This document shows, in pieces, positions 2-9,667 of a DNA stretch of 9,667 nt. Made by a program: the position numbers and the translations under genes. Position 1 is the first letter of the stretch, and the number at the start of each line of letters is the position of its first letter. Below the pieces are notes generated by a model. The model was not told where the DNA came from. It did no database searches and worked only from the letters and a program-made list of their open reading frames with translations. Source of the stretch: Candidatus Altarchaeota archaeon (GTDB taxonomy: Archaea > Altiarchaeota > Altiarchaeia > JAFGQM01); the NCBI GenBank assembly GCA_016935655.1, contig JAFGQM010000098.1, positions 1-9,667 on the forward strand. Reading direction: 5' to 3'.

Positions 2-496
2 GAAGTGGCCATGGGCGGTGAGGGGGTTATAAAGGACATAGTGGTGCACCTGCCGATGAACCTTGTGGACCTGAAGTGTAAGCCGGGTTCCAACGGCGTC
101 AACTTCACTGTCCTGCTGTACAACCAGGACTGCGACTCGGACAGAAGGTATGCGCCGTATCCACAAAACTTTCTCGGAGTGACTGGGATTACAACATACT
201 GCTACCACATCCTCAACATAACGACGCCGCTTCCGATAGGCACATGCGAGCTGTGCGACCCCACCACCCACCAGAGCAGGAAGGGGTGGGTGTATATAGG
301 AGACCCGAATGGTGTACCTGCCAGTCCGAACGCCGGTGATCTGGTCGAGTTCTGCTGTGATGCAGGATTCAACATGCACGTGAGGGTCATGAAGAGCATC
401 AAAACGCCTGAAAATCAAATTGAAACTGTGAGCAATCGCATCGACATACTACAAAGGAGGTACTGGGCCGTTCCAGAATCATGGAAAATAACCTAA
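2..496 (+). CDS. Cys-rich secreted or pilin-like protein, C-terminal part (5' end outside window)
   Basis: The frame is open from the first base of the window, so this is the C-terminal part (about 164 residues) of a longer protein. The GTG at 5 and ATG at 11 are probably internal codons. The visible part has seven cysteines, including an ELC cluster near residue 79 and a CC pair near residue 118, and it has no hydrophobic segment. That suits a disulfide-bonded domain outside the cell, with any signal or class III leader upstream of the window. I do not recognise the family. It ends with TAA at 494-496, inside the next gene if that gene starts at ATG 481, so it is probably the preceding member of the same operon. 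A role as another pilin-like or adhesin-like subunit is inferred from context only. Confidence 0.7.
   Translation, partial: EVAMGGEGVIKDIVVHLPMNLVDLKCKPGSNGVNFTVLLYNQDCDSDRRYAPYPQNFLGVTGITTYCYHILNITTPLPIGTCELCDPTTHQSRKGWVYIGDPNGVPASPNAGDLVEFCCDAGFNMHVRVMKSIKTPENQIETVSNRIDILQRRYWAVPESWKIT
456..461 (+). promoter_or_regulatory. GGAGGT Shine-Dalgarno-like site, unusually far from the next start
   Basis: GGAGGT lies inside the end of the preceding gene, 19 nt before ATG 481. That is longer than the usual 5-10 nt. No ATG, GTG or TTG in the right frame lies closer, so it either serves ATG 481 at long spacing or is a chance match. It slightly favours ATG 481 over the in-frame ATG 502. Confidence 0.35.
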
Positions 497-1005
497 GAAA
501 AATGGAAACAGACAAAAAAGGGCAGCTGTCCTTTGACATGATATTCGCAATCATAATGCTCCTGATAGTCCTGGAGTTATGCGCTGAGTCATACAACAGC
601 ATAAGAGCGTCCTCACAGGACATCGAGACCCTGTCGACCTTCGACCAGCTTGCCACGTCCCTCGCGCTCCAGATGAACAAGGCTTATGTCTATGGGGTCA
701 ATATGAAGCCGTCGCCGGATAACCCCCTTGTTGGCGACGAATACATAGTTGTAGTAACACTACCTTACGAAGGACTTTATGACTCTGTTGAGTACAGTGT
801 TGAAACAGAAAACAGGCCAGGTGTGGGTATGGATTATTTGAAAATCACCAACTTAGCGGATCCCGGGGAGCCGAAGTTAGAGGTGTACAGGGAGCTTCTT
901 TTTGATTGTAATCCAGATATCATGGCGATAAAATCGTCTCCCCCCCCAGGAAAACAGATAGAAGTAACGTGCCGTTCGGGGGGTTGTAAATGTGAGGTAT
1001 TATGA
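481..1005 (+). CDS. Class III signal peptide (type IV prepilin-like) protein 1
   Basis: This 174-residue protein has an archaeal class III leader: a charged stretch ending KKG, predicted cleavage after Gly14, then mature QLSFD and a hydrophobic helix to about residue 36. Prepilin peptidase cuts such leaders before the hydrophobic segment, which then forms the filament core. An acidic residue (Asp) occupies mature position 5, where Glu is usual. The rest is a soluble C-terminal domain ending in a Cys-rich tail (four cysteines in the last 32 residues). ATG 481 is chosen because it gives a 14-residue leader, as in the next two genes; ATG 502 would give a 7-residue leader and is a real alternative. 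The stop overlaps the next start as ATGA. A C8 run at 940-947 sits in the coding region. The exact role (pilus, archaellum-like filament or secretion pseudopilus) cannot be told from sequence. Confidence 0.88.
   Translation: MENNLRKMETDKKGQLSFDMIFAIIMLLIVLELCAESYNSIRASSQDIETLSTFDQLATSLALQMNKAYVYGVNMKPSPDNPLVGDEYIVVVTLPYEGLYDSVEYSVETENRPGVGMDYLKITNLADPGEPKLEVYRELLFDCNPDIMAIKSSPPPGKQIEVTCRSGGCKCEVL
940..947 (+). repeat. Homopolymeric C8 tract inside a pilin-like gene
   Basis: Eight consecutive C residues encode the Pro-Pro-Pro part of a Ser-Pro-Pro-Pro-Gly turn at about residues 153-157 of the first prepilin-like protein. Loss of one C brings an in-frame TAG about five codons later. Gain of one C gives a different tail ending at a TAA just before the next gene. 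Either change removes the Cys-rich tail. A G6 run at 978-983 could pair with part of it. Whether the tract varies in nature is not visible here. Confidence 0.9.
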
Positions 1006-1403
1006 GGGTATACACACCTGTTATGGAAAGGGGTAGAAGGGGGCAAGTTGCCATAGAAAACCTTTTCATTATCATACTTATAGTAATGGCGGTTTCCATA
1101 ATCGTCGGCGGGCTTATCTCGAACAAGGAAAGCCTCGGAGTCATGTACGACGCCCGGGTGCAGGCGCAGGAGATCGCGTATAATCTCACAGTTAAGGAGG
1201 GCATAACGACTCACGTGATAAGGCTGGACGACACCGATATAGACGGGAAGATACCCCTTGGTGAGATAAGGGTCTATATTGTGGCCGAAGACTGTGACGA
1301 AGTGGAACCGAAATTTAAAAAGTATTTCAATGACTACTTCGCTCCTGACATAACATTGGATGACTCTGCTGGCTGGTGTGAGGAATTGTATACGCTAGAC
1401 TAA
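1002..1403 (+). CDS. Class III signal peptide (type IV pilin-like) protein 2, most canonical
   Basis: This 133-residue protein is the smallest of the set and the one with the textbook signal. The leader ends RRG (Gly14), cleavage would expose Gln at +1, and Glu is at +5 (QVAIE), followed by a hydrophobic helix to about residue 40. In type IV pilins Glu5 neutralises the N-terminus of the neighbouring subunit during assembly, so this is the best candidate for a core filament subunit. The mature C-terminal domain is short and acidic, with two cysteines that could pair. ATG 1002 overlaps the previous stop (ATGA) and has GAGGT three bases before it. ATG 1023, giving a 7-residue leader, is an alternative. 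It is followed after one base by the next gene (TAAGATG). Confidence 0.92.
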   Translation: MRVYTPVMERGRRGQVAIENLFIIILIVMAVSIIVGGLISNKESLGVMYDARVQAQEIAYNLTVKEGITTHVIRLDDTDIDGKIPLGEIRVYIVAEDCDEVEPKFKKYFNDYFAPDITLDDSAGWCEELYTLD

Positions 1404-1404
1404 G

Positions 1405-1977
1405 ATGAATGGGATCGTTTTAAAGAAGGGCTCAAGGAGCAGGGGGCAGATATTCTCCTTAGACGTGCTCGTGGCGCTTGTGCCGGTGGTCATGCTGCTG
1501 GGCGTGGGCCTGCAGTACCTGTATGAAGTACAGGAGGAGATGAAGTTCGTCTCAGGCGATTACGAGCTCGAGTCCCTGTCCAGGGCGCCACTGGACCTGA
1601 TGGTATCAAAGTATGGGAATGTGATATATTGCGACGAATATGAGGATTATCTAGAAAAGTTTTTAGATACGAGATACTTAGATGATGACTATGTATTCTA
1701 CCTTGCCGCAAACTACTACACGGAAAACATTGACGGCGGCAGCAAGCCCGAGAAGATAGCGTCCTGTGAACTGGAGGGTCCTACAGCTAGTCCTGAGGCT
1801 GTGCAGTTCTGGAGCAGTCGCACTGATGATGGCAATTCATTGGACTCCGAGTCGTTGCTTATGAATAAAAAGACTACTGCTTCATGGAAGCGGTTCGTCT
1901 TGGGGAACGTCAGGGGAGGTTTAAGTCCGGGGAACATAACCGAGGTTTCCCTGGCCGTATGGGAGAGGAAAGAATGA
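1405..1977 (+). CDS. Class III signal peptide (type IV prepilin-like) protein 3
   Basis: This 190-residue protein has a basic leader ending SRSRG (Gly14), Gln at +1, and a hydrophobic segment to about residue 39. The acidic residue of the mature helix is Asp at +6 (QIFSLD) rather than at +5. The soluble domain begins with a charged helix and contains only two cysteines, near residues 74 and 114, which could form one disulfide. Length and layout fit a minor pilin or pseudopilin with an extracytoplasmic domain. The start is one base after the previous stop, implying translational coupling; the nearest GAGG is too far upstream to be convincing. Its stop overlaps the next start as ATGA. I recognise no specific family beyond the leader type. 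Confidence 0.88.
   Translation: MNGIVLKKGSRSRGQIFSLDVLVALVPVVMLLGVGLQYLYEVQEEMKFVSGDYELESLSRAPLDLMVSKYGNVIYCDEYEDYLEKFLDTRYLDDDYVFYLAANYYTENIDGGSKPEKIASCELEGPTASPEAVQFWSSRTDDGNSLDSESLLMNKKTTASWKRFVLGNVRGGLSPGNITEVSLAVWERKE
1961..1968 (+). promoter_or_regulatory. Ribosome binding site fixing the start of prepilin-like gene 4
   Basis: GGGAGAGG ends five bases before ATG 1974, a good Shine-Dalgarno distance. Together with the ATGA overlap and the short basic leader that results, it supports 1974 as the start, rather than the longer in-frame ATG at 1884, which would put 30 extra polar residues before the leader. Confidence 0.7.
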
Positions 1978-2642
1978 AACGCAAGGGCATAATAGCGATA
2001 CTGGATGCGTTGCTCGCGTACACGACGATGTTCGTCTTTGTAGGGGCCATAGTCCTTCTCCTGAGCAACCAGGACTATGAGTCTGGCAGGGAGAGCCATG
2101 TGCTCAACTACTGGGCAGAGGACATCGCCGAAGCCATGGGCAGGAGCTGGGTGGCATACGACCGCGACTCTGACGACCCGGACCCAAAAATCAAGGGCCC
2201 AAATCCACGTGTGTACGACGGGCTCTACGGGAAGATACCAGACCCTGGAACAGCGGCAGAATCAGATGATGAGGACGGGTACTGGCATGACGAGATGTAT
2301 CTGCCCTTCCGCTGTGACACCTCGCCCCATATACAAACCAAGTTTTTGACCCAGCTTGAGAATCTGGCAATAGCCGACGGGTTCTATGTCAAGTTGACGA
2401 TAACCGACCCCAATACAAACGATATATTAAACGAGGTATACGGCAGGAGTCTTGACGGGATGGACATAGACGAAAGGGCGGAGTTCTTTGATAACCTAGT
2501 AAATAAAGCATCTGCCATTAGGTATCTGTTGGAGGACAGGGACATGTCTGCAGGATCGCAGCCACATGGCTCCCTGACCGGCGAACTTTGCAAACTCACG
2601 GTTATTGTGGCTTTTCATGACACTATAGAGGCGATACCATAA
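1974..2642 (+). CDS. Prepilin-like protein 4 with very short KRKG leader
   Basis: From ATG 1974 the product is 222 residues: a five-residue leader MKRKG, then a long hydrophobic helix (about residues 6-31) with Asp at mature +6 (IIAILD). The +1 residue is Ile rather than the usual Gln, so processing by prepilin peptidase is plausible but less certain than for the preceding genes. The extracytoplasmic part has an acidic, Asp/Pro-rich stretch around residues 60-100 (possibly metal-binding, an inference) and two cysteines, at about residues 117 and 209. Start choice rests on a good ribosome binding site and the ATGA overlap with the preceding gene. The next gene follows after one base. A minor pseudopilin role is inferred from leader type and operon position. 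Confidence 0.85.
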   Translation: MKRKGIIAILDALLAYTTMFVFVGAIVLLLSNQDYESGRESHVLNYWAEDIAEAMGRSWVAYDRDSDDPDPKIKGPNPRVYDGLYGKIPDPGTAAESDDEDGYWHDEMYLPFRCDTSPHIQTKFLTQLENLAIADGFYVKLTITDPNTNDILNEVYGRSLDGMDIDERAEFFDNLVNKASAIRYLLEDRDMSAGSQPHGSLTGELCKLTVIVAFHDTIEAIP

Positions 2643-2643
2643 G

Positions 2644-3411
2644 ATGGACAAAAAGGGTTATGTTATGAACGGGATGGTGTTTTTGATGTTGGTGCCAGTC
2701 CTTATCCTGGCCATATACCAGTCCGCAAGCGTGTCAAACGTAGCGGAATCCGACTACGAGGAGATAAGGGCATTGAAGGTCGGATACGCGGCCGACAATA
2801 TCTTCGAAATTTTCAACCAGTCTAAGGGGGACATGCTCGATCCCGATTACCCCAGCTACTGTGACAACATTGAAGCGATATTAAAAGACTCTGAGGAGAT
2901 AGGAGACACAGAGCTTGGTTCCGGGCCGCCTGTATGGCTCTATGATACCGACCCGGCAAATCTATTGGAATGCACGGAAATCCCGTTGAGGGTAAAAAAC
3001 CTGCGCACAGGCTCTCTGGAGGACCCGCCGCTAATACTGGACCTAAGGAACGCTTATGATCTAGTAGCCCCAGACTTTGGTGAAATAGTTGGCTGTTGGG
3101 ACATAGCTTCTTCTGAGCCAGACTACTTACTTTTTGAGCGTGATGATTGTCGGCGTAACCCTATTGATGGACGATATAAAGATAAATTCTGTGGTGGTAC
3201 CAGTGAATTTGATTGTATAGGTTTGTATTTATACTTTACTAGTGGTTCACTGGCGGGAAAAAGATTTGAAATCATTGACAATGGTTGTGAAAACGCCGAA
3301 AATAGGCGAAAGATAAAACTCAGGGGGTGGTATGATTGTACTTCCGTTAGACCGGATGAAGTATTGCCTGATGGGTCTCTCCGCTGGGACTATGAGATTT
3401 ACCCAATCTAG
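2644..3411 (+). CDS. Largest prepilin-like protein, no position-5 acid, C-terminal FTSG-type beta domain (possible tip subunit)
   Basis: This 255-residue protein has a five-residue leader MDKKG followed by a hydrophobic helix (about residues 6-25) that contains no acidic residue at +5 or +6 (YVMNGM). It is the largest of the five pilin-like products and has eight cysteines, all in the extracytoplasmic part. Residues 198-205 read FTSGSLAG, followed by KRFEI, a beta-strand-rich Lys/Arg segment and an Asp-Gly-Ser...Trp-Asp-Tyr-Glu-Ile ending. From memory this resembles a short beta domain found in many phage tail and surface proteins; a profile search would be needed to confirm. That domain is encoded by AT-rich DNA (about 35% GC by hand over 3121-3240, against about 47% over 2641-2760). 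Large size and missing Glu5 recall GspK, the tip pseudopilin of type II secretion; this is analogy, not demonstrated homology. Confidence 0.83.
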   Translation: MDKKGYVMNGMVFLMLVPVLILAIYQSASVSNVAESDYEEIRALKVGYAADNIFEIFNQSKGDMLDPDYPSYCDNIEAILKDSEEIGDTELGSGPPVWLYDTDPANLLECTEIPLRVKNLRTGSLEDPPLILDLRNAYDLVAPDFGEIVGCWDIASSEPDYLLFERDDCRRNPIDGRYKDKFCGGTSEFDCIGLYLYFTSGSLAGKRFEIIDNGCENAENRRKIKLRGWYDCTSVRPDEVLPDGSLRWDYEIYPI

Positions 3412-3429
3412 CTCCTCTAAATCCTACCC

Positions 3430-3840
3430 ATGGCTTTCATTATACGCGCCAAAGGCCACCCGAATGTAGGGGCCACACATAAAACGACCATAGAGATAAC
3501 AACGGAGGATTTCCTTACCCGGGAGGGCGACTGCATAATCGGGATATCAGCAGACAAGGCGTTAAAGGATCTGGACGAAGGTATAAAGGCCCATCTTAGG
3601 TCAGGGGGCAAGATACTCCTGCAAATAGTTTCTGGAGGCTCAAAGGACGTTATAAGCGGCCAGGGCGACCCTAGGCTGACCTTCAAAAGCGATAGATCCA
3701 TGGTCTTAAGGAAGAGTGATTTCGTCTGCGACAGGACACTTTGCATAAGGGCCGACAAGGCGGCGGCTGATTTGGACAGAAGCCTGATAGGGAATATTTC
3801 CAACGGCCATGATGTCGAGGTAAGGATCTCAAAACTTTGA
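3430..3840 (+). CDS. DUF371 family protein
   Basis: This 136-residue soluble protein matches the archaeal DUF371 family as I know it: a GHPNV motif (His10), a second His at 17 with a TTIEIT strand, LTREGDCIIGISADKA at about 29-44, GQGDP near 77-81, and MVLRKSDF near 91-98. The molecular function of the family is not established. It has no signal peptide or membrane segment, so it is probably cytoplasmic, unlike its neighbours. Residues 39-49 and 106-116 are similar (both ADK..xDLD), suggesting two related halves. The start lies 18 nt after the last prepilin-like gene with no evident Shine-Dalgarno sequence or clear TATA box. It may be transcribed by read-through from that operon, and the association with the pilin genes may be incidental. 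Confidence 0.9.
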   Translation: MAFIIRAKGHPNVGATHKTTIEITTEDFLTREGDCIIGISADKALKDLDEGIKAHLRSGGKILLQIVSGGSKDVISGQGDPRLTFKSDRSMVLRKSDFVCDRTLCIRADKAAADLDRSLIGNISNGHDVEVRISKL

Positions 3841-3847
3841 ATTTGGA

Positions 3848-3867
3848 TGTAACCGACTCAGGTTACA
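3848..3867. terminator. Perfect 7-bp hairpin between convergent genes (possible bidirectional terminator)
   Basis: TGTAACC and GGTTACA flank the 6-nt loop GACTCA in the 32-nt gap between two convergent stop codons. The position suits a signal stopping transcription from both sides. No clear T-run follows on either strand, and archaeal termination normally depends on T-rich tracts rather than hairpins, so termination is a guess. The inverted repeat itself is certain. Confidence 0.45.
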
Positions 3868-3872
3868 GATGA

Positions 3873-4325
3873 TTATAGTTTGAGCTCCACATGGTCCCCC
3901 ACCCTGATCGAGTTCTCGTCTATGAAGCCGGCATTCACCTCAAGGACGTACTGTATGAGCTCATTTGACCTATATATCTGGCAAGAGTCCGAGGAACAAG
4001 GCTGTAGGTCTTCAGAAATTTGGACCACCTGAAACTCTTCATCGATCCAGATAAGGTCCAGGGGAAACATCATGTCCCTCATCCAGAAGGACGCTATCTT
4101 CGGGTTGGGGAAGACGAAGAGCATGCCCTCGCCCTCCGCGAGACTGGGAACAAGGCTAAGCCCAGTGTTCTGCTTCTCCACCGTATCGGCTACAGAGACC
4201 CTGACTGTCGCGCCGTTTTGGAATAAAACAAGGCTGTCGGCATCTGGTGGGTGCCCAAGGGGCAAAAGGGATAGGGACGCCAAGACCAGGGCTATGATAA
4301 CCATCAACAGCAGTAGCAATCTCAT
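3873..4325 (-). CDS. Exported DUF192 family protein
   Basis: This 150-residue protein carries the DUF192 signature: TGL near residue 54, EGMLFVF at 66-72, FWMRDMMFPLDLIWID at 80-95 (commonly FWMKNT.iPLDi in the family), and YVLEVNAG at 126-133, ending with a GDHVEL strand. The family is widespread in bacteria and archaea and its biochemical role is not known to me. An N-terminal hydrophobic stretch (residues 3-21, preceded by Arg2) is a signal peptide or membrane anchor, so the domain is extracytoplasmic. Two cysteines at 110 and 115 lie in an insert-like loop and could pair. Its ATG overlaps the macroglobulin stop (ATGA), which implies translational coupling and probably a shared location. 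Confidence 0.92.
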   Translation of the reverse strand: MRLLLLLMVIIALVLASLSLLPLGHPPDADSLVLFQNGATVRVSVADTVEKQNTGLSLVPSLAEGEGMLFVFPNPKIASFWMRDMMFPLDLIWIDEEFQVVQISEDLQPCSSDSCQIYRSNELIQYVLEVNAGFIDENSIRVGDHVELKL

Positions 4326-7300
4326 TTCTTTGCACTCTTGGAGGCCTTCTCCTTCATACGCGTTATTATTACGACTATAAGGACCAGAATCACCAAAAGG
4401 GCCGCCAGGATGGCTAGGTCATTCATGCTGGCCCCGTTCTGGCCTTTGGGGGACAGGTCAGCGGTCTGCTGGCTTCCCACCCTCGTCACCTCCACTTGGC
4501 CCACCTGTATCCGCTTGCTGCCGGCTATCTTCGCCCCCTCTGGTGTGGTGAGGGTGTAGCTTATGACGTAGAAACCGTCTGCCAGGGATATGGGTATCAC
4601 CATCTCTTGGTTTTCCTCAGAGTTCTTTATGCTCATGTACTCTCTTTTCTGCTTCAGCAGGTTGCCCTTCTCGTCTTCCACTTCTATCAGCACTTCACCG
4701 GACAAGTCGTCGGGGACGAACTTCAATGCATTTACGGTGAATTTTAGTTCATTTGGACTTATCACCACGTCGGCTATCCTGACCCTTATCTTGTCGACTA
4801 TGTCCAGCCGCTTCTCGTCTGAGTGCCCCCTTATCTTTTCGTCGTACATGTTGTAGGCCAGACCGGGCATCACATGGTAGGAGCCCGGGATCTCAGCCCT
4901 TAGTGTGTAGGTTATCTCGTTTTTGCCCGGGTGCACATAGGTCATGAAGTAGACCACCTTCTCATCCCGTATCTCCCTTCTGCTATACCACCAGCTCCAG
5001 CCATAGTCCCAATAGTAGGACCCTTCCCTGTTCTCGACGACCTCGCATCCCGCAGGTATGGGGTCTTCCAGGATTATGTACTCTAGATCTGAGGGGACAT
5101 CGATGGTCAGTGTGACATTTATCTCCTCCCCGCTCTGCACCTGTGTCTTGCTATATCGTTTATTGACTGTTATGCCGTTGCTCTTGGCCTTTATGCTCTC
5201 TTCCATCTTGAAATATTTAAGGAAAAGGGAGTAGTAGAGTTTGCCTTGCCCCTCCTTGACTACCTTTATCTCATTCTTGCCCACCGCAGGATCCAGCTTG
5301 AGCTCATTGTCCATGCTGAAGACGTCGTCCTTCTTCACGCTCGCAACAAGGTCGCCGTTCAGGTAGACCTTGGCCACGTAGTTGGGGGTCATCTCCTTGG
5401 AGACCTTCAAATACTCGGCCAGGGCAAACACGGCTATGGCCGTATCTTTTGTAGAATACCAGTGGTTGCCCCTCCTGTTCTCGACGAGCCACTGAACAGT
5501 CCTGACTATTTTGTCATTGTTTGGATCTGCCTTCAACATAGCCATCAGCACATAAGAGGTCGTCTCCACATTGTTGGTGTTCCAGCTGTAATGGAAGGTC
5601 TCTGATTCCCAGTGGCACCGTATCTCATCACAGATGGCTGTCTTGTCAAAGTCTGGTACATACCCCTTCACACCGGTATTGATCGCCGCGAGAAGCTTCA
5701 GGGCGCGCGCATAGTCGTTCATCTCGGACTCCTTAAACTTTGAGAGATCCACCTCCCCGTAGAAGGAGAGGGAATACGCCATATAGGCCCTCGTATTCGA
5801 ATCTATGATGTCTTCAGAATACATCTTCCTGAGCTTCTCCAGGCCCCTGGCCAGCACATTCGAGTCGACCGTATAGCCGGCGTTCTTGGCCTGGGTCAGC
5901 CCGTATATCGCATAGGCGGTCATGTATGGGTGTGTATTGTCGTTCTCCCACCAGCCCCAGCCACCGTCCGAATGCTGCATGTTATAGATCTGCTGGAACC
6001 CCTTGCTCACCATGTCAGGCAGCTCTTCCTCCAGTTTCTCGTTCTTGATTCCCAAGTCCTTCAAGACCTGGACCACCATCACGTCCGGTAAGAAGGCGCT
6101 CATTGTCTGTTCTAAGCAGCCATAGGGGTAAGTAGCCAGATAGTCCAAGGCGTCAAATGCTGTCGCAGCTATTGAGGGCGACAAGGTCAATGTCAGTTCT
6201 GTTGCCCCGAATATGCTGTCCTCTGGGACGAGTAGGGTCTTTGTTATGGATGTATCTACCATCCCAGCCCAGACGTCCTGCTCCTCTATACCGTGGGGTA
6301 TTATCGGTATGACCATCTCCATGGCGTCGCTTTCCACGTCTGTGAGGGCCTTTACTGTTATGTTGGCCAAGCAGCAATCATCTATTGCTACGTTCCAGTC
6401 CACCCTCTCATCAGCCCCATGGGCCACGGAGACTGTCTTTGTCAGGGAATCCAGGACATTGATACCGTCCGCCTGGAGGATTATCTGCACGTCCTTCATC
6501 TCGCCGAGGTAGTTGTGGACAACGGCAGATATGACCAGCTCGTCATTCTGCGTGAAGAAACGGGGAGTCTCCAGTCGCACTAGAAGATCTTTCCTGGCGA
6601 TGACTGTCTGCGTCCCCTGACCTACCTTGAAGTCTTTTGTAATCGCTCTGGCAGTGGATTTCCAGGTGGTAAGGGAATCCGGAATCTGCACCCTGACGGT
6701 GGCCTCGCCATTGGAGTCGGTTATCACATGGGCATGCCAGAAAGCCGTGTCAGGGAAGTATTCCCTTATAGTCGGCTCGACCAATCCAGCTGCCGCTTTC
6801 GCACTGAAACCTCCGCTCATTGCATCCATGGCTACTTCTCTGGCGGCCTCCATAGGGGCTGCTGACGGGGCTATGTTCTGTGCTGCGCCCACGGAATATC
6901 TCAAATCCCAATCCATATGCCCCCCGTACATCCAAGAGGCCTGGGTCATCACCTGGCTCCACCTGCGGCCGTAGAAGAACCTCTCTATCTGGGTCGTAGT
7001 CTCCTCTACTATGGAATATATGGATTCGTCCACAATCCCAAAAGAAAGTTCGGCAGATACTGGATCGCCATTATTGTCTGTCGTCTTTATCGTAAAGACG
7101 GCATTCTCCCTGGGTTCGTAGACCTCCTTGTCCGAGATTATCTCCACGTTCAGGAACTTCTTGCCTGGCTGCACTACGAGAACTGCATTTTGAGTGTACT
7201 GGGTCTTCTCATTGACTATTATCACGTATACCACTGCATTGGGCTCATAGTCCTCTTTCACCGGTATCTCGACCCTGGCAGAGGTGCCCTCAGCTGAGAC

Positions 7301-9133
7301 TACTTGGTAATCATAAAGCTCGTTCGCCTCGAGAGCTACAAAGGCGGTGAAGTTCGCAATAGGTGAGTTTATCAGGACCTTGGCGGTGTCACCCACGTTG
7401 TACATGTCCTTGTCCAGGATCACATCAAGGCTCTCCCAGTAGTCATACCAGGTCCGCCCTTCCTCATAGACATAGAACCAACGGGTGGTCTCTATCTCGT
7501 TGCCCTTGGAGTCCTCGCTAGTTATCTTTATCTCAAAGTTCCCGGACTGATCGGGGACGAATTCAATATACTTTACCCCCTTTTCATCTGTTTCAAAATC
7601 AGTCTTGTAAACACTGGTTTCCTTGTGTGTGGACTTTTCCCATACCCTTCTGACTATCTCTAGCTTTCCATAGGCTGAGACTGGATTCTCCTCGATGTCC
7701 ATGGATTTTATGGTTATCCTGACGGTATCGCCGTCGTCGTAGGAATACTTGTCTGTACTAAGCTCGAAGTCGTATTCCGCGCGCGCGACGATGACCGAGG
7801 TCGTGCCAGAAGCCTCCCTCCTGCTTTTGTCCGTCACAGTGGCCTCTATCAGGAAAACCGAGTTGTGATCTGTCTGTGCCTCAAAGTTTATCCTGGCCTT
7901 TCCGTCAGAGCCTGTCACAGTAGTCCCTCTCTTGACTTCCCCGCCGTAGTAGCCATAATAGTAACGGCTTGAGTAATCCTCCTCATAATACCAGCACCAG
8001 TAGCCCCTACAGGGATAGTAATATCCGGAGCTGTAGACCCTATACTCCACCTCAGCATCGGGGACAGGGCTGCCAAAGAAGTAGTTAGCGCTTATTTCAA
8101 CAGATATATTGTCCCCCTTTATGTAAGTCTCCTTGTCCGCAGCCAGTTCGACTTTGTATTCGGGCTTCTTGTATTCCTGCACCTCGAAGCTGCCGTAACC
8201 GCTGTAGCTGCCCGCTCTCCGGATCTCTATCTGGTAGTTGCCCAGAGGGGGCTCCTCGCCCAACAGCATCGAGCCGGAGACGCTACCAAACTCGCTTAGG
8301 GACAGGTTCTCGGTGTAGACGATGTTCCACTTGGGGTCCTTTATCTCGACTGTCACATAGCCTTTAGGAACTTCAAAACTGTCATCCTTCTGCTCCCATA
8401 CTATCGCTTTGAAATAGACCCTCTGGTTAGGCCGGTAGACCGGGCGGTCAGTATACACATAGGTCTTTGACTGGTCATAACCATAATAGTAATAATAGGG
8501 CGTCACAAAGGCTATATTGCCGTCATATTCCGCGACGACATTGACGGAATTGGTCTTATTGCCGATTTTGTATTCCACAACACCGTCGGAATCGGTTTTC
8601 TTGCTTGCAAGGAACTTAGAATCCCAGTATATGTTCACATTAGCGCCTTGGATTGGCTTCCCATCGTCTATATCAAGGGTATAAATCAACATGTTCTCGC
8701 CCCACATCTTGGTCATGACGCCGAGGTCTGAGATCAGGAATGAGGTAGTCTGGTTGCTGACATTGGATTGTGCCTTGATGAAATACATGCCCTTGCCCGA
8801 GACTGTAAAATCGAGCTCCTGGCAGTCGTACCAGTCGCCTGTCTTCTTCGGTTCCACAGTCCAGGACTTGAGTGCACCCCCCTTCAGGGCGGCCTCTATT
8901 ATCCTCTGGGCCTCTGAAGAATCGGATGCCCCCACATACTCATAGAGGGTATCTACATCGAGTTTGTATAGTGCCAAATCCACCTTGCCGTAGTTATGCC
9001 CACAGAGGGACACCTGCGGCTTTTCGTCGGTCATGAACTGGTACTCGTTCTGGAAGTATACATATCCGTATCCATTGACCGATCCGACCATGCCCAATAC
9101 GAGCAACCCGAGGAGTATGTAGGCTGTTTTCAT
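4322..9133 (-). CDS. Alpha-2-macroglobulin family protein with intact thioester and C-terminal membrane anchor
   Basis: At 1603 residues this is a full-length bacterial-type alpha-2-macroglobulin. Order: signal peptide (1 to about 21); N-terminal beta domains; the MG2/MG3 hallmark TDRPVYRP at 228-235; EYKKPEYKV at 320 and YFFGSPV at 351; bait-region-type domain from about 569; an Ala/Met-rich putative bait segment at about 725-788; the central A2M signature REYFPDTAFW at 790; YPYGCLEQ with thioester residues Cys1006 and Gln1009; a helical thioester domain to about 1270; a bMG10-like domain with DPIPAG at 1357; an extra beta domain; a transmembrane helix at about 1573-1590; and a Lys-rich tail. 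Family members trap proteases or attach covalently to targets through the thioester after bait cleavage. Here the protein would sit outside the cell, anchored in the membrane. It starts 2 nt after the upstream stop and overlaps the DUF192 start. The bacterial-style sequence suggests ancient transfer (inference). Confidence 0.95.
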   Translation of the reverse strand: MKTAYILLGLLVLGMVGSVNGYGYVYFQNEYQFMTDEKPQVSLCGHNYGKVDLALYKLDVDTLYEYVGASDSSEAQRIIEAALKGGALKSWTVEPKKTGDWYDCQELDFTVSGKGMYFIKAQSNVSNQTTSFLISDLGVMTKMWGENMLIYTLDIDDGKPIQGANVNIYWDSKFLASKKTDSDGVVEYKIGNKTNSVNVVAEYDGNIAFVTPYYYYYGYDQSKTYVYTDRPVYRPNQRVYFKAIVWEQKDDSFEVPKGYVTVEIKDPKWNIVYTENLSLSEFGSVSGSMLLGEEPPLGNYQIEIRRAGSYSGYGSFEVQEYKKPEYKVELAADKETYIKGDNISVEISANYFFGSPVPDAEVEYRVYSSGYYYPCRGYWCWYYEEDYSSRYYYGYYGGEVKRGTTVTGSDGKARINFEAQTDHNSVFLIEATVTDKSRREASGTTSVIVARAEYDFELSTDKYSYDDGDTVRITIKSMDIEENPVSAYGKLEIVRRVWEKSTHKETSVYKTDFETDEKGVKYIEFVPDQSGNFEIKITSEDSKGNEIETTRWFYVYEEGRTWYDYWESLDVILDKDMYNVGDTAKVLINSPIANFTAFVALEANELYDYQVVSAEGTSARVEIPVKEDYEPNAVVYVIIVNEKTQYTQNAVLVVQPGKKFLNVEIISDKEVYEPRENAVFTIKTTDNNGDPVSAELSFGIVDESIYSIVEETTTQIERFFYGRRWSQVMTQASWMYGGHMDWDLRYSVGAAQNIAPSAAPMEAAREVAMDAMSGGFSAKAAAGLVEPTIREYFPDTAFWHAHVITDSNGEATVRVQIPDSLTTWKSTARAITKDFKVGQGTQTVIARKDLLVRLETPRFFTQNDELVISAVVHNYLGEMKDVQIILQADGINVLDSLTKTVSVAHGADERVDWNVAIDDCCLANITVKALTDVESDAMEMVIPIIPHGIEEQDVWAGMVDTSITKTLLVPEDSIFGATELTLTLSPSIAATAFDALDYLATYPYGCLEQTMSAFLPDVMVVQVLKDLGIKNEKLEEELPDMVSKGFQQIYNMQHSDGGWGWWENDNTHPYMTAYAIYGLTQAKNAGYTVDSNVLARGLEKLRKMYSEDIIDSNTRAYMAYSLSFYGEVDLSKFKESEMNDYARALKLLAAINTGVKGYVPDFDKTAICDEIRCHWESETFHYSWNTNNVETTSYVLMAMLKADPNNDKIVRTVQWLVENRRGNHWYSTKDTAIAVFALAEYLKVSKEMTPNYVAKVYLNGDLVASVKKDDVFSMDNELKLDPAVGKNEIKVVKEGQGKLYYSLFLKYFKMEESIKAKSNGITVNKRYSKTQVQSGEEINVTLTIDVPSDLEYIILEDPIPAGCEVVENREGSYYWDYGWSWWYSRREIRDEKVVYFMTYVHPGKNEITYTLRAEIPGSYHVMPGLAYNMYDEKIRGHSDEKRLDIVDKIRVRIADVVISPNELKFTVNALKFVPDDLSGEVLIEVEDEKGNLLKQKREYMSIKNSEENQEMVIPISLADGFYVISYTLTTPEGAKIAGSKRIQVGQVEVTRVGSQQTADLSPKGQNGASMNDLAILAALLVILVLIVVIITRMKEKASKSAKK

Positions 9134-9135
9134 TT

Positions 9136-9667
9136 TTAGTCTTGTTTATTCTGAATTGATTTAGTCTTTGCTTCCTTAAGCGTCTTTGCCTCGCTTTCCT
9201 CCTTTTGCAGCTTCTTGCCGTGCCGCTTTGTCCGGAGGACATAGAAGACCGCGACGAGGATGAAGAAGACTATCAGGAGGATTGCCAGCGTGGGCATGCT
9301 GTCCTCGGGCTGGGGCGACGGTTCCGGTGGGATTATCGGCGGCTCCACAGGAGGCGTAACTGGTTCAGTTCCTTTTTCCACGCACCTGTTGTTGACGCAG
9401 TCAAGTTCGCCTTGGAACATGAAGCATGCATATTCGCATATCGGGCATCCGCTCGTGGTTCTATGGGCCTCTATGAGGCCCCTTAGCTCTGTAAGGTCTG
9501 CATCCTTGTTTATGAAGGTGTTGCAACCAAACGGGCAGCCGAAGTACTCGTTCATGCAGTCGCTGCCGGACTGGCAGTAGTTAAGCTCTTCGATTTTCTG
9601 TCTGATCTGGTCTTCCATGTCTTTGCATCCATCCCCCAAACCAAGGTCGGTAATGATATCCTCAGTA
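9136..9667 (-). CDS. Cys-rich single-pass membrane protein, 5' end outside window
   Basis: The frame stays open to the window edge. A TTG at 9639 could be read as a start, but the codons upstream (ending DIITDLG) continue without a stop and no signal peptide is present, so the true start probably lies beyond the window. The visible part has ten cysteines between about residues 14 and 96 (for example CPFGC and CPICEYAC), enough for five disulfides; then a Pro/Glu linker of roughly 25 residues; a transmembrane helix (LAILLIVFFILVAVFYVL); and a basic, charged tail rich in Lys and Glu. Expected topology is Cys domain outside, tail in the cytoplasm, matching the macroglobulin encoded 2 nt downstream. 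I recognise no named family. A partner, receptor or anchor role for the macroglobulin is conjecture from the operon. Confidence 0.85.
   Translation of the reverse strand, partial: TEDIITDLGLGDGCKDMEDQIRQKIEELNYCQSGSDCMNEYFGCPFGCNTFINKDADLTELRGLIEAHRTTSGCPICEYACFMFQGELDCVNNRCVEKGTEPVTPPVEPPIIPPEPSPQPEDSMPTLAILLIVFFILVAVFYVLRTKRHGKKLQKEESEAKTLKEAKTKSIQNKQD

Follow-up and report, generated by a model that had tools for sequence, protein, structure and literature searches.

A predicted membrane-anchored, thioester-type alpha-2-macroglobulin in a three-gene unit of a Candidatus Altarchaeota archaeon

What might a thioester-type alpha-2-macroglobulin (A2M) do on the surface of an archaeal cell? Innate immunity of the A2M type is usually described for animals, with a parallel in the bacterial periplasm, and most archaea have no outer membrane. 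The question is raised by a stretch of 9,667 nucleotides (nt), hereafter the window, on contig JAFGQM010000098.1 of a Candidatus Altarchaeota archaeon (assembly GCA_016935655.1). Its open reading frames (ORFs) and their translations place three packed, co-directional genes on the minus strand at 3873-9667, encoding a Cys-rich protein, an A2M, and a DUF192 protein. We find that the A2M is genuine and well preserved. Computation establishes its family membership and predicted fold, locates a bait segment, a thioester site, and a hydrophobic anchor at the C-terminus, and shows how tightly the three genes are packed. Most probably, it is a single-use, covalent protease trap that is held on the archaeal membrane at the cell surface. 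The original prediction, which proposed an undescribed archaeal defense or attachment system formed by the three genes, thus holds for a membrane-anchored CxEQ A2M in a three-gene unit, most simply a protease trap, but its claims of an undescribed system and a recurring trio found no support. With a membrane-anchored archaeal A2M, protection based on a thioester could be tested on a cell that has no outer membrane.

Domain order, bait segment, and thioester site of the A2M

The A2M frame spans 1603 codons; when the mononucleotides of the window were shuffled 200 times, no stop-to-stop frame exceeded 292 codons. Six Pfam domains lie over their curated cut-offs, in the order bMG3, MG2, A2M_BRD, A2M, TED_complement, and bMG10. 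Together with CLEQ at residues 1006-1009, they confirm the full domain chain that had been claimed from the sequence. The best sequence matches in the PDB are A2ML1 (123 bits) and E. coli YfhM (83 bits). The structure was predicted as two overlapping halves, each compared with solved structures. Both half-models match solved A2Ms, with the C-terminal half closest to chains in the native state.

In the predicted model, residues 737-782, which lie after the bait-region domain and before the next MG domain, have a predicted local distance difference test score (pLDDT) below 50. Among the A2M of the window (P0001) and its homologues P0002 to P0010, pairwise identity falls to 0.149 over residues 741-780, compared with a mean of 0.497, and stays at 0.149-0.170 in 40-residue segments across residues 736-785. 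Comparably low identity occurs only in the C-terminal linker and anchor (0.147), followed by a segment near the N-terminus (0.173). With predicted disorder and hypervariability at the canonical place, residues 736-785 would fit the expectation for a bait region.

The thioester site is strongly conserved. Our homologue set holds 120 of 2875 matches, and among these listed matches GCxEQ is present in all 120, P0001 included, preceded by Y-x-Y in 118. Across a 12-row alignment, YPYGC-x-EQTMS is invariant. In Salmonella A2M, a protective role toward the thioester has been proposed for two tyrosines (PMC4498604). We take these to be the residues at positions -4 and -2. On the evidence of Pfam, alignment, and predicted models, the protein has the domain order, the CxEQ motif within the thioester domain (TED), the disordered and variable bait, and the fold of the thioester (type I) A2M class. 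Sequence alone cannot show that a thioester forms, and the protein could have retained the fold, as a surface or scaffold component, while its thioester does not work. The invariance of the motif speaks against such a loss, which we regard as very improbable.

These features suggest the following mechanism. The A2M would be exported by means of its putative signal peptide and held by its C-terminal helix at the outside of the cell membrane. A protease that cuts the disordered bait loop would cause the A2M to rearrange, exposing the presumed Cys1006-Gln1009 thioester, until then buried, which could bond to the protease. The captured protease would then remain tethered at the surface, with the extra C-terminal domain perhaps acting as a stalk between trap and membrane. 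The Cys-rich and DUF192 proteins are probably co-expressed with the A2M, without necessarily being part of this mechanism. For all three proteins, export and membrane topology are predicted from hydrophobic segments and basic tails.

The thioester might instead bind the cell to the surface of a partner or host, making the A2M a covalent attachment or opsonin-like protein. However, a bait loop that is disordered, hypervariable, and canonically placed better fits the sensing of proteases, and for the large A2Ms of a parasitic bacterium of the Candidate Phyla Radiation (CPR) it is protection from host proteases, not attachment, that was suggested (PMC8080830). We therefore consider attachment unlikely. 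A second paper likewise notes A2M proteins of CPR bacteria as possible protection from host proteases (PMC9793634). None of the three proteins matched the PADLOC models of anti-phage defense (E 0.01), and a search of viral contigs with the A2M gave no match.

The C-terminal anchor and its place among known A2Ms

Beyond bMG10, the predicted model has about 105 residues of beta strands, then a disordered linker and a helix. By our reading of its strands, the extra domain may be immunoglobulin (Ig)-like. Hydropathy in the C-terminal segment peaks at 3.52 (19-residue Kyte-Doolittle averaging), in agreement with the transmembrane anchor that had been predicted. Among the matches listed, P0001 and its ten nearest homologues (P0002-P0011, the last labelled Nanoarchaeota) all end in such a tail, 155-198 residues long and containing a hydrophobic segment. 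The other 109 show a C-terminal hydrophobic segment at equal threshold only in P0042, P0075, and P0082. A profile of the tail, which the eleven match by construction, found none of these 109 at E 0.01. It likewise found nothing when 80 bacterial A2M loci (L001-L080) were translated in all six frames; these loci represent 80 of 550 relatives, all bacterial, so that archaeal relatives may fall outside them. Leave-one-out profiles regained the omitted member in all five trials (P0011 at 7.5e-10), and one of the five also gave a marginal outside match (P0025, E 0.0017). The putative beta domain and transmembrane helix set this A2M apart and, among the listed homologues, are specific to the group P0001-P0011. 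The domain could thus serve as a sequence tag for collecting the anchored form.

On a tree of 56 A2M sequences, built with FastTree only, 13 sequences form one set at support 100: P0001-P0011, P0030, and P0082. Within it, P0001-P0010 group at 87, and P0011 is placed beside P0082 (support 92), a protein with a hydrophobic C-terminal segment and no match to the tail profile. The group P0001-P0011 is thus not a single clade on this tree.

CD109, a eukaryotic relative, is also bound to the cell surface at its C-terminus, via glycosylphosphatidylinositol (GPI), where the archaeal protein would use a transmembrane helix instead. It is conceivable, though we hold this only tentatively, that thioester protease traps with a C-terminal anchor make up a subfamily of their own in archaea, perhaps throughout DPANN, and are the prokaryotic equivalent of CD109; their stalk and a lineage-specific Cys-domain partner in the membrane would then guard the surface against the proteases of neighbors or hosts. 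Compared with eukaryotic A2M, A2ML1, CD109, and TEP1, the archaeal protein appears to have one additional N-terminal domain, as the eukaryotic structures begin to align near model residue 115.

With the type I proteins of E. coli (ECAM/YfhM) and Salmonella (SaA2M), the A2M of the window shares the MG domains, the bait, the TED with CxEQ, and the bMG10/CTMG end domain. From about residue 157-166 onward, the model of the N-terminal half can be aligned with both, which suggests one N-terminal MG domain fewer; at the other end, the archaeal protein adds the C-terminal domain and the predicted anchor. ECAM has a lipobox after its signal peptide (PMC3328433), whereas no lipobox pattern was found in residues 9-45 of this A2M or in any of P0001-P0011.

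Archaeal A2Ms as such have been described before. A published survey reported archaeal TEDs with intact CxEQ in 27 proteins from 24 genomes, some adjoining surface proteins, and suggested immune functions (PMC8416519). Its A2M homologues, from Halobacteria, Methanomicrobia, and others, share with the protein studied here the CxEQ TED and the status of secreted archaeal proteins, which in the present case is predicted. The neighbors described for them are Ig-domain proteins, peptide transporters, endoproteases, and arCOG14565, and the main text has no mention of DUF192. With such proteins and some of their neighborhoods in print, the locus is not an undescribed system. The same survey reports a C-terminal transmembrane segment in eight arCOG07710 Ig proteins of thermococci. 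These belong to the VARTIG module of Thermococcales, whose arCOG07710 Ig protein has a hypervariable C-terminus and no TED (PMC8416519); with its TED, the present A2M is not VARTIG. A2M-like repeats have also been noted in a sponge-associated thaumarchaeon (PMC6697440). In the literature searched (main texts without supplements, with few subscription papers), we found neither a C-terminally anchored archaeal A2M with this extra domain nor the trio.

The Cys-rich and DUF192 neighbors

Do the two neighboring genes belong to the trap? The junction between the Cys-rich and A2M genes reads GAC TAA AA ATG, a gap of 2 nt, and that between the A2M and DUF192 genes reads AAATGAG, with the stop TGA inside ATGA, an overlap of 4 nt. 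ORF coordinates and junction sequence thus bear out the three-gene layout first described, and this packing suggests co-expression. Third-position GC is 0.65-0.68 in all three genes, compared with 0.49-0.63 in six other genes of the window, and the A2M and the Cys-rich protein are of like predicted topology (by eye). All this would suit a dedicated module in which the Cys-rich and DUF192 proteins serve the A2M at the surface, for example as a docking partner, or as a holder or inhibitor of captured proteases. The distribution of the two neighbors in the loci and genomes covered argues otherwise, as set out below, and makes a dedicated module quite unlikely.

The identity of the DUF192 protein was rightly called: PF02643 matches at 108.3 bits (cut-off 27), and the N-terminus is hydrophobic. 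Its closest relative is 54% identical, and the two solved relatives (3m7a, 3pjy) are named only as uncharacterized or hypothetical. We noticed no difference from an ordinary member of DUF192 / COG1430. The family is common elsewhere, being present in 6 of 14 control genomes, including those of M. jannaschii and H. volcanii, both without an A2M match.

The Cys-rich protein has ten Cys among its 176 visible residues, which also hold a Pro-rich linker, a predicted transmembrane segment, and a basic tail. This is the expected ten-Cys, single-pass form, although the N-terminus, with any signal peptide, lies beyond the edge of the window. Pfam has no family over cut-off in this ORF. A protein search recovered no homologue besides the protein itself among 52 candidates (lengths about 97-308 amino acids; query incomplete at its 5' end), and no match was found in viral contigs, in plasmids, or in five single genomes (0/5) searched for recurrence of the trio.

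Of 285 Omnitrophota genomes, however, nine gave a match to the Cys domain (best E 4e-8). An alignment including pieces from eight of these nine matched 10 of 270 genomes, one of them new (G251, E 3e-6). The domain is probably extracellular, and the open frames that contain it range from 94 to 475 residues. Across nine rows, C18, C24, F33, N40, K41, C68, C77, and C82 are invariant (numbered on the 86-residue row from the window). At nine loci (L081-L089), the pattern NYC..D.DC...C.FGC...NK...C...C....C stands alone or within longer Omnitrophota proteins, once with a GH26-like match; the domain has no Pfam family over cut-off there either. A match in one of 199 Planctomycetota genomes was not counted, being a short piece with three internal stops. 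BsuPI- and TIMP-like protease-inhibitor domains were suspected beside the domain at L081 and L085; Pfam found none there, and we thus claim no protease-inhibitor role for Cys-domain proteins.

Recurrence of the trio was sought in several ways. The six-frame translations of the 80 bacterial A2M loci yielded neither DUF192 (E 0.001) nor the Cys domain (E 0.01), while both profiles recover the window's own genes; flanks are limited at some of these loci, with an ORF of at least 90 amino acids on each given side in 70 of the 80. DUF192 is likewise absent from all 397 neighbor ORFs of these loci. No contig is shared between 119 A2M and 118 DUF192 entries, judged by the sizes of longest contigs, a coarse proxy that takes each cluster's longest contig only and covers 120 of 2875 A2M and 120 of 145 DUF192 matches. 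Finally, none of the nine genomes with the Cys domain has an A2M, while eight have DUF192. One of these nine genomes, G087, has another Cys-domain match at some 6.5 kb from a DUF192 gene; it is weak (E 5e-4) and did not reappear in the alignment search, and we take it as chance. Together with the lack of Cys-rich homologues among the protein candidates, these results, which do not refute recurrence in archaea, leave the claim of a recurring module unsupported and the trio unproven as a functional system. Recurring in genomes without A2M, the Cys domain is better seen as a scattered small domain than as an A2M-specific partner.

Genomic surroundings and bacterial counterparts

The features of the locus are given in Table 1. 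The neighboring DUF371 gene bears on the source of the DNA. Of 14 control genomes, three have DUF371, each of them archaeal, and an archaeal origin is thus well supported.

Table 1. Features of the three-gene unit and the adjoining gene, in coordinates of the window (topology and domain limits as predicted).
Feature	Positions	Strand	Description
Cys-rich single-pass protein	9136-9666	-	5' end beyond the edge of the window; 176 residues visible
Ten-Cys domain	9382-9627	-	Homologous to Omnitrophota protein domains; no Pfam family over cut-off
Transmembrane segment of Cys-rich protein	9235-9291	-	Visible residues 126-144; by eye
A2M	4322-9133	-	1603 aa; hydrophobic N-terminus (putative signal peptide), MG domains, bait, TED with CLEQ, bMG10, extra C-terminal beta domain, transmembrane helix
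Bait segment	6779-6928	-	Residues 736-785; hypervariable in P0001-P0010, low pLDDT
Thioester motif	6107-6118	-	C1006-L-E-Q1009, YPYG just before; alignment and motif reading
Extra C-terminal beta domain	4502-4813	-	Residues 1441-1544; found in P0001-P0011 only
C-terminal transmembrane segment	4361-4417	-	Residues 1573-1591, then basic tail; hydrophobicity
DUF192 (PF02643) protein	3873-4325	-	150 aa; N-terminal hydrophobic segment
DUF371 (PF04027) gene	3430-3840	+	Convergent with the three-gene unit, 32 nt apart

The locus had also been contrasted with bacterial A2Ms linked to the penicillin-binding protein PbpC. Here, pbpC is not directly adjacent to the A2M gene, whose direct neighbors are the Cys-rich ORF and DUF192; any gene past the Cys-rich ORF falls beyond the window. 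The contrast is true for the E. coli type (PMC3328433). In the nearer bacterial relatives that we sampled, other families are the commonest immediate neighbors. Immediate neighbors were tallied with Pfam for 86 of the 99 that lie within 600 nt (out of 140), omitting ten on the other strand and three short ones. DUF1175 is commonest (20/86), followed by VanW and NlpC/P60 (11/86 each). Among second and third neighbors (the 51 largest of 112 eligible), SpoIID occurs in 11 and a transpeptidase in 10. We take these surroundings to be a peptidoglycan context, which most archaea presumably would not need.

Two further observations concern the bacterial loci. The frequency of DUF1175 beside A2Ms is a possible clue to its function. 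One locus (L042) holds, besides the matched A2M, a second of 2054 amino acids (1726-7887) with a carboxypeptidase-regulatory-like domain. Elsewhere in the window, five nearly abutting ORFs on the plus strand (481-3411), all of which combine a short N-terminus with a hydrophobic stretch, resemble archaeal type IV pilins by eye; the sole family signal of this kind comes from one ORF, which weakly matches the class III signal peptide family (PF04021, E 0.02, below cut-off).
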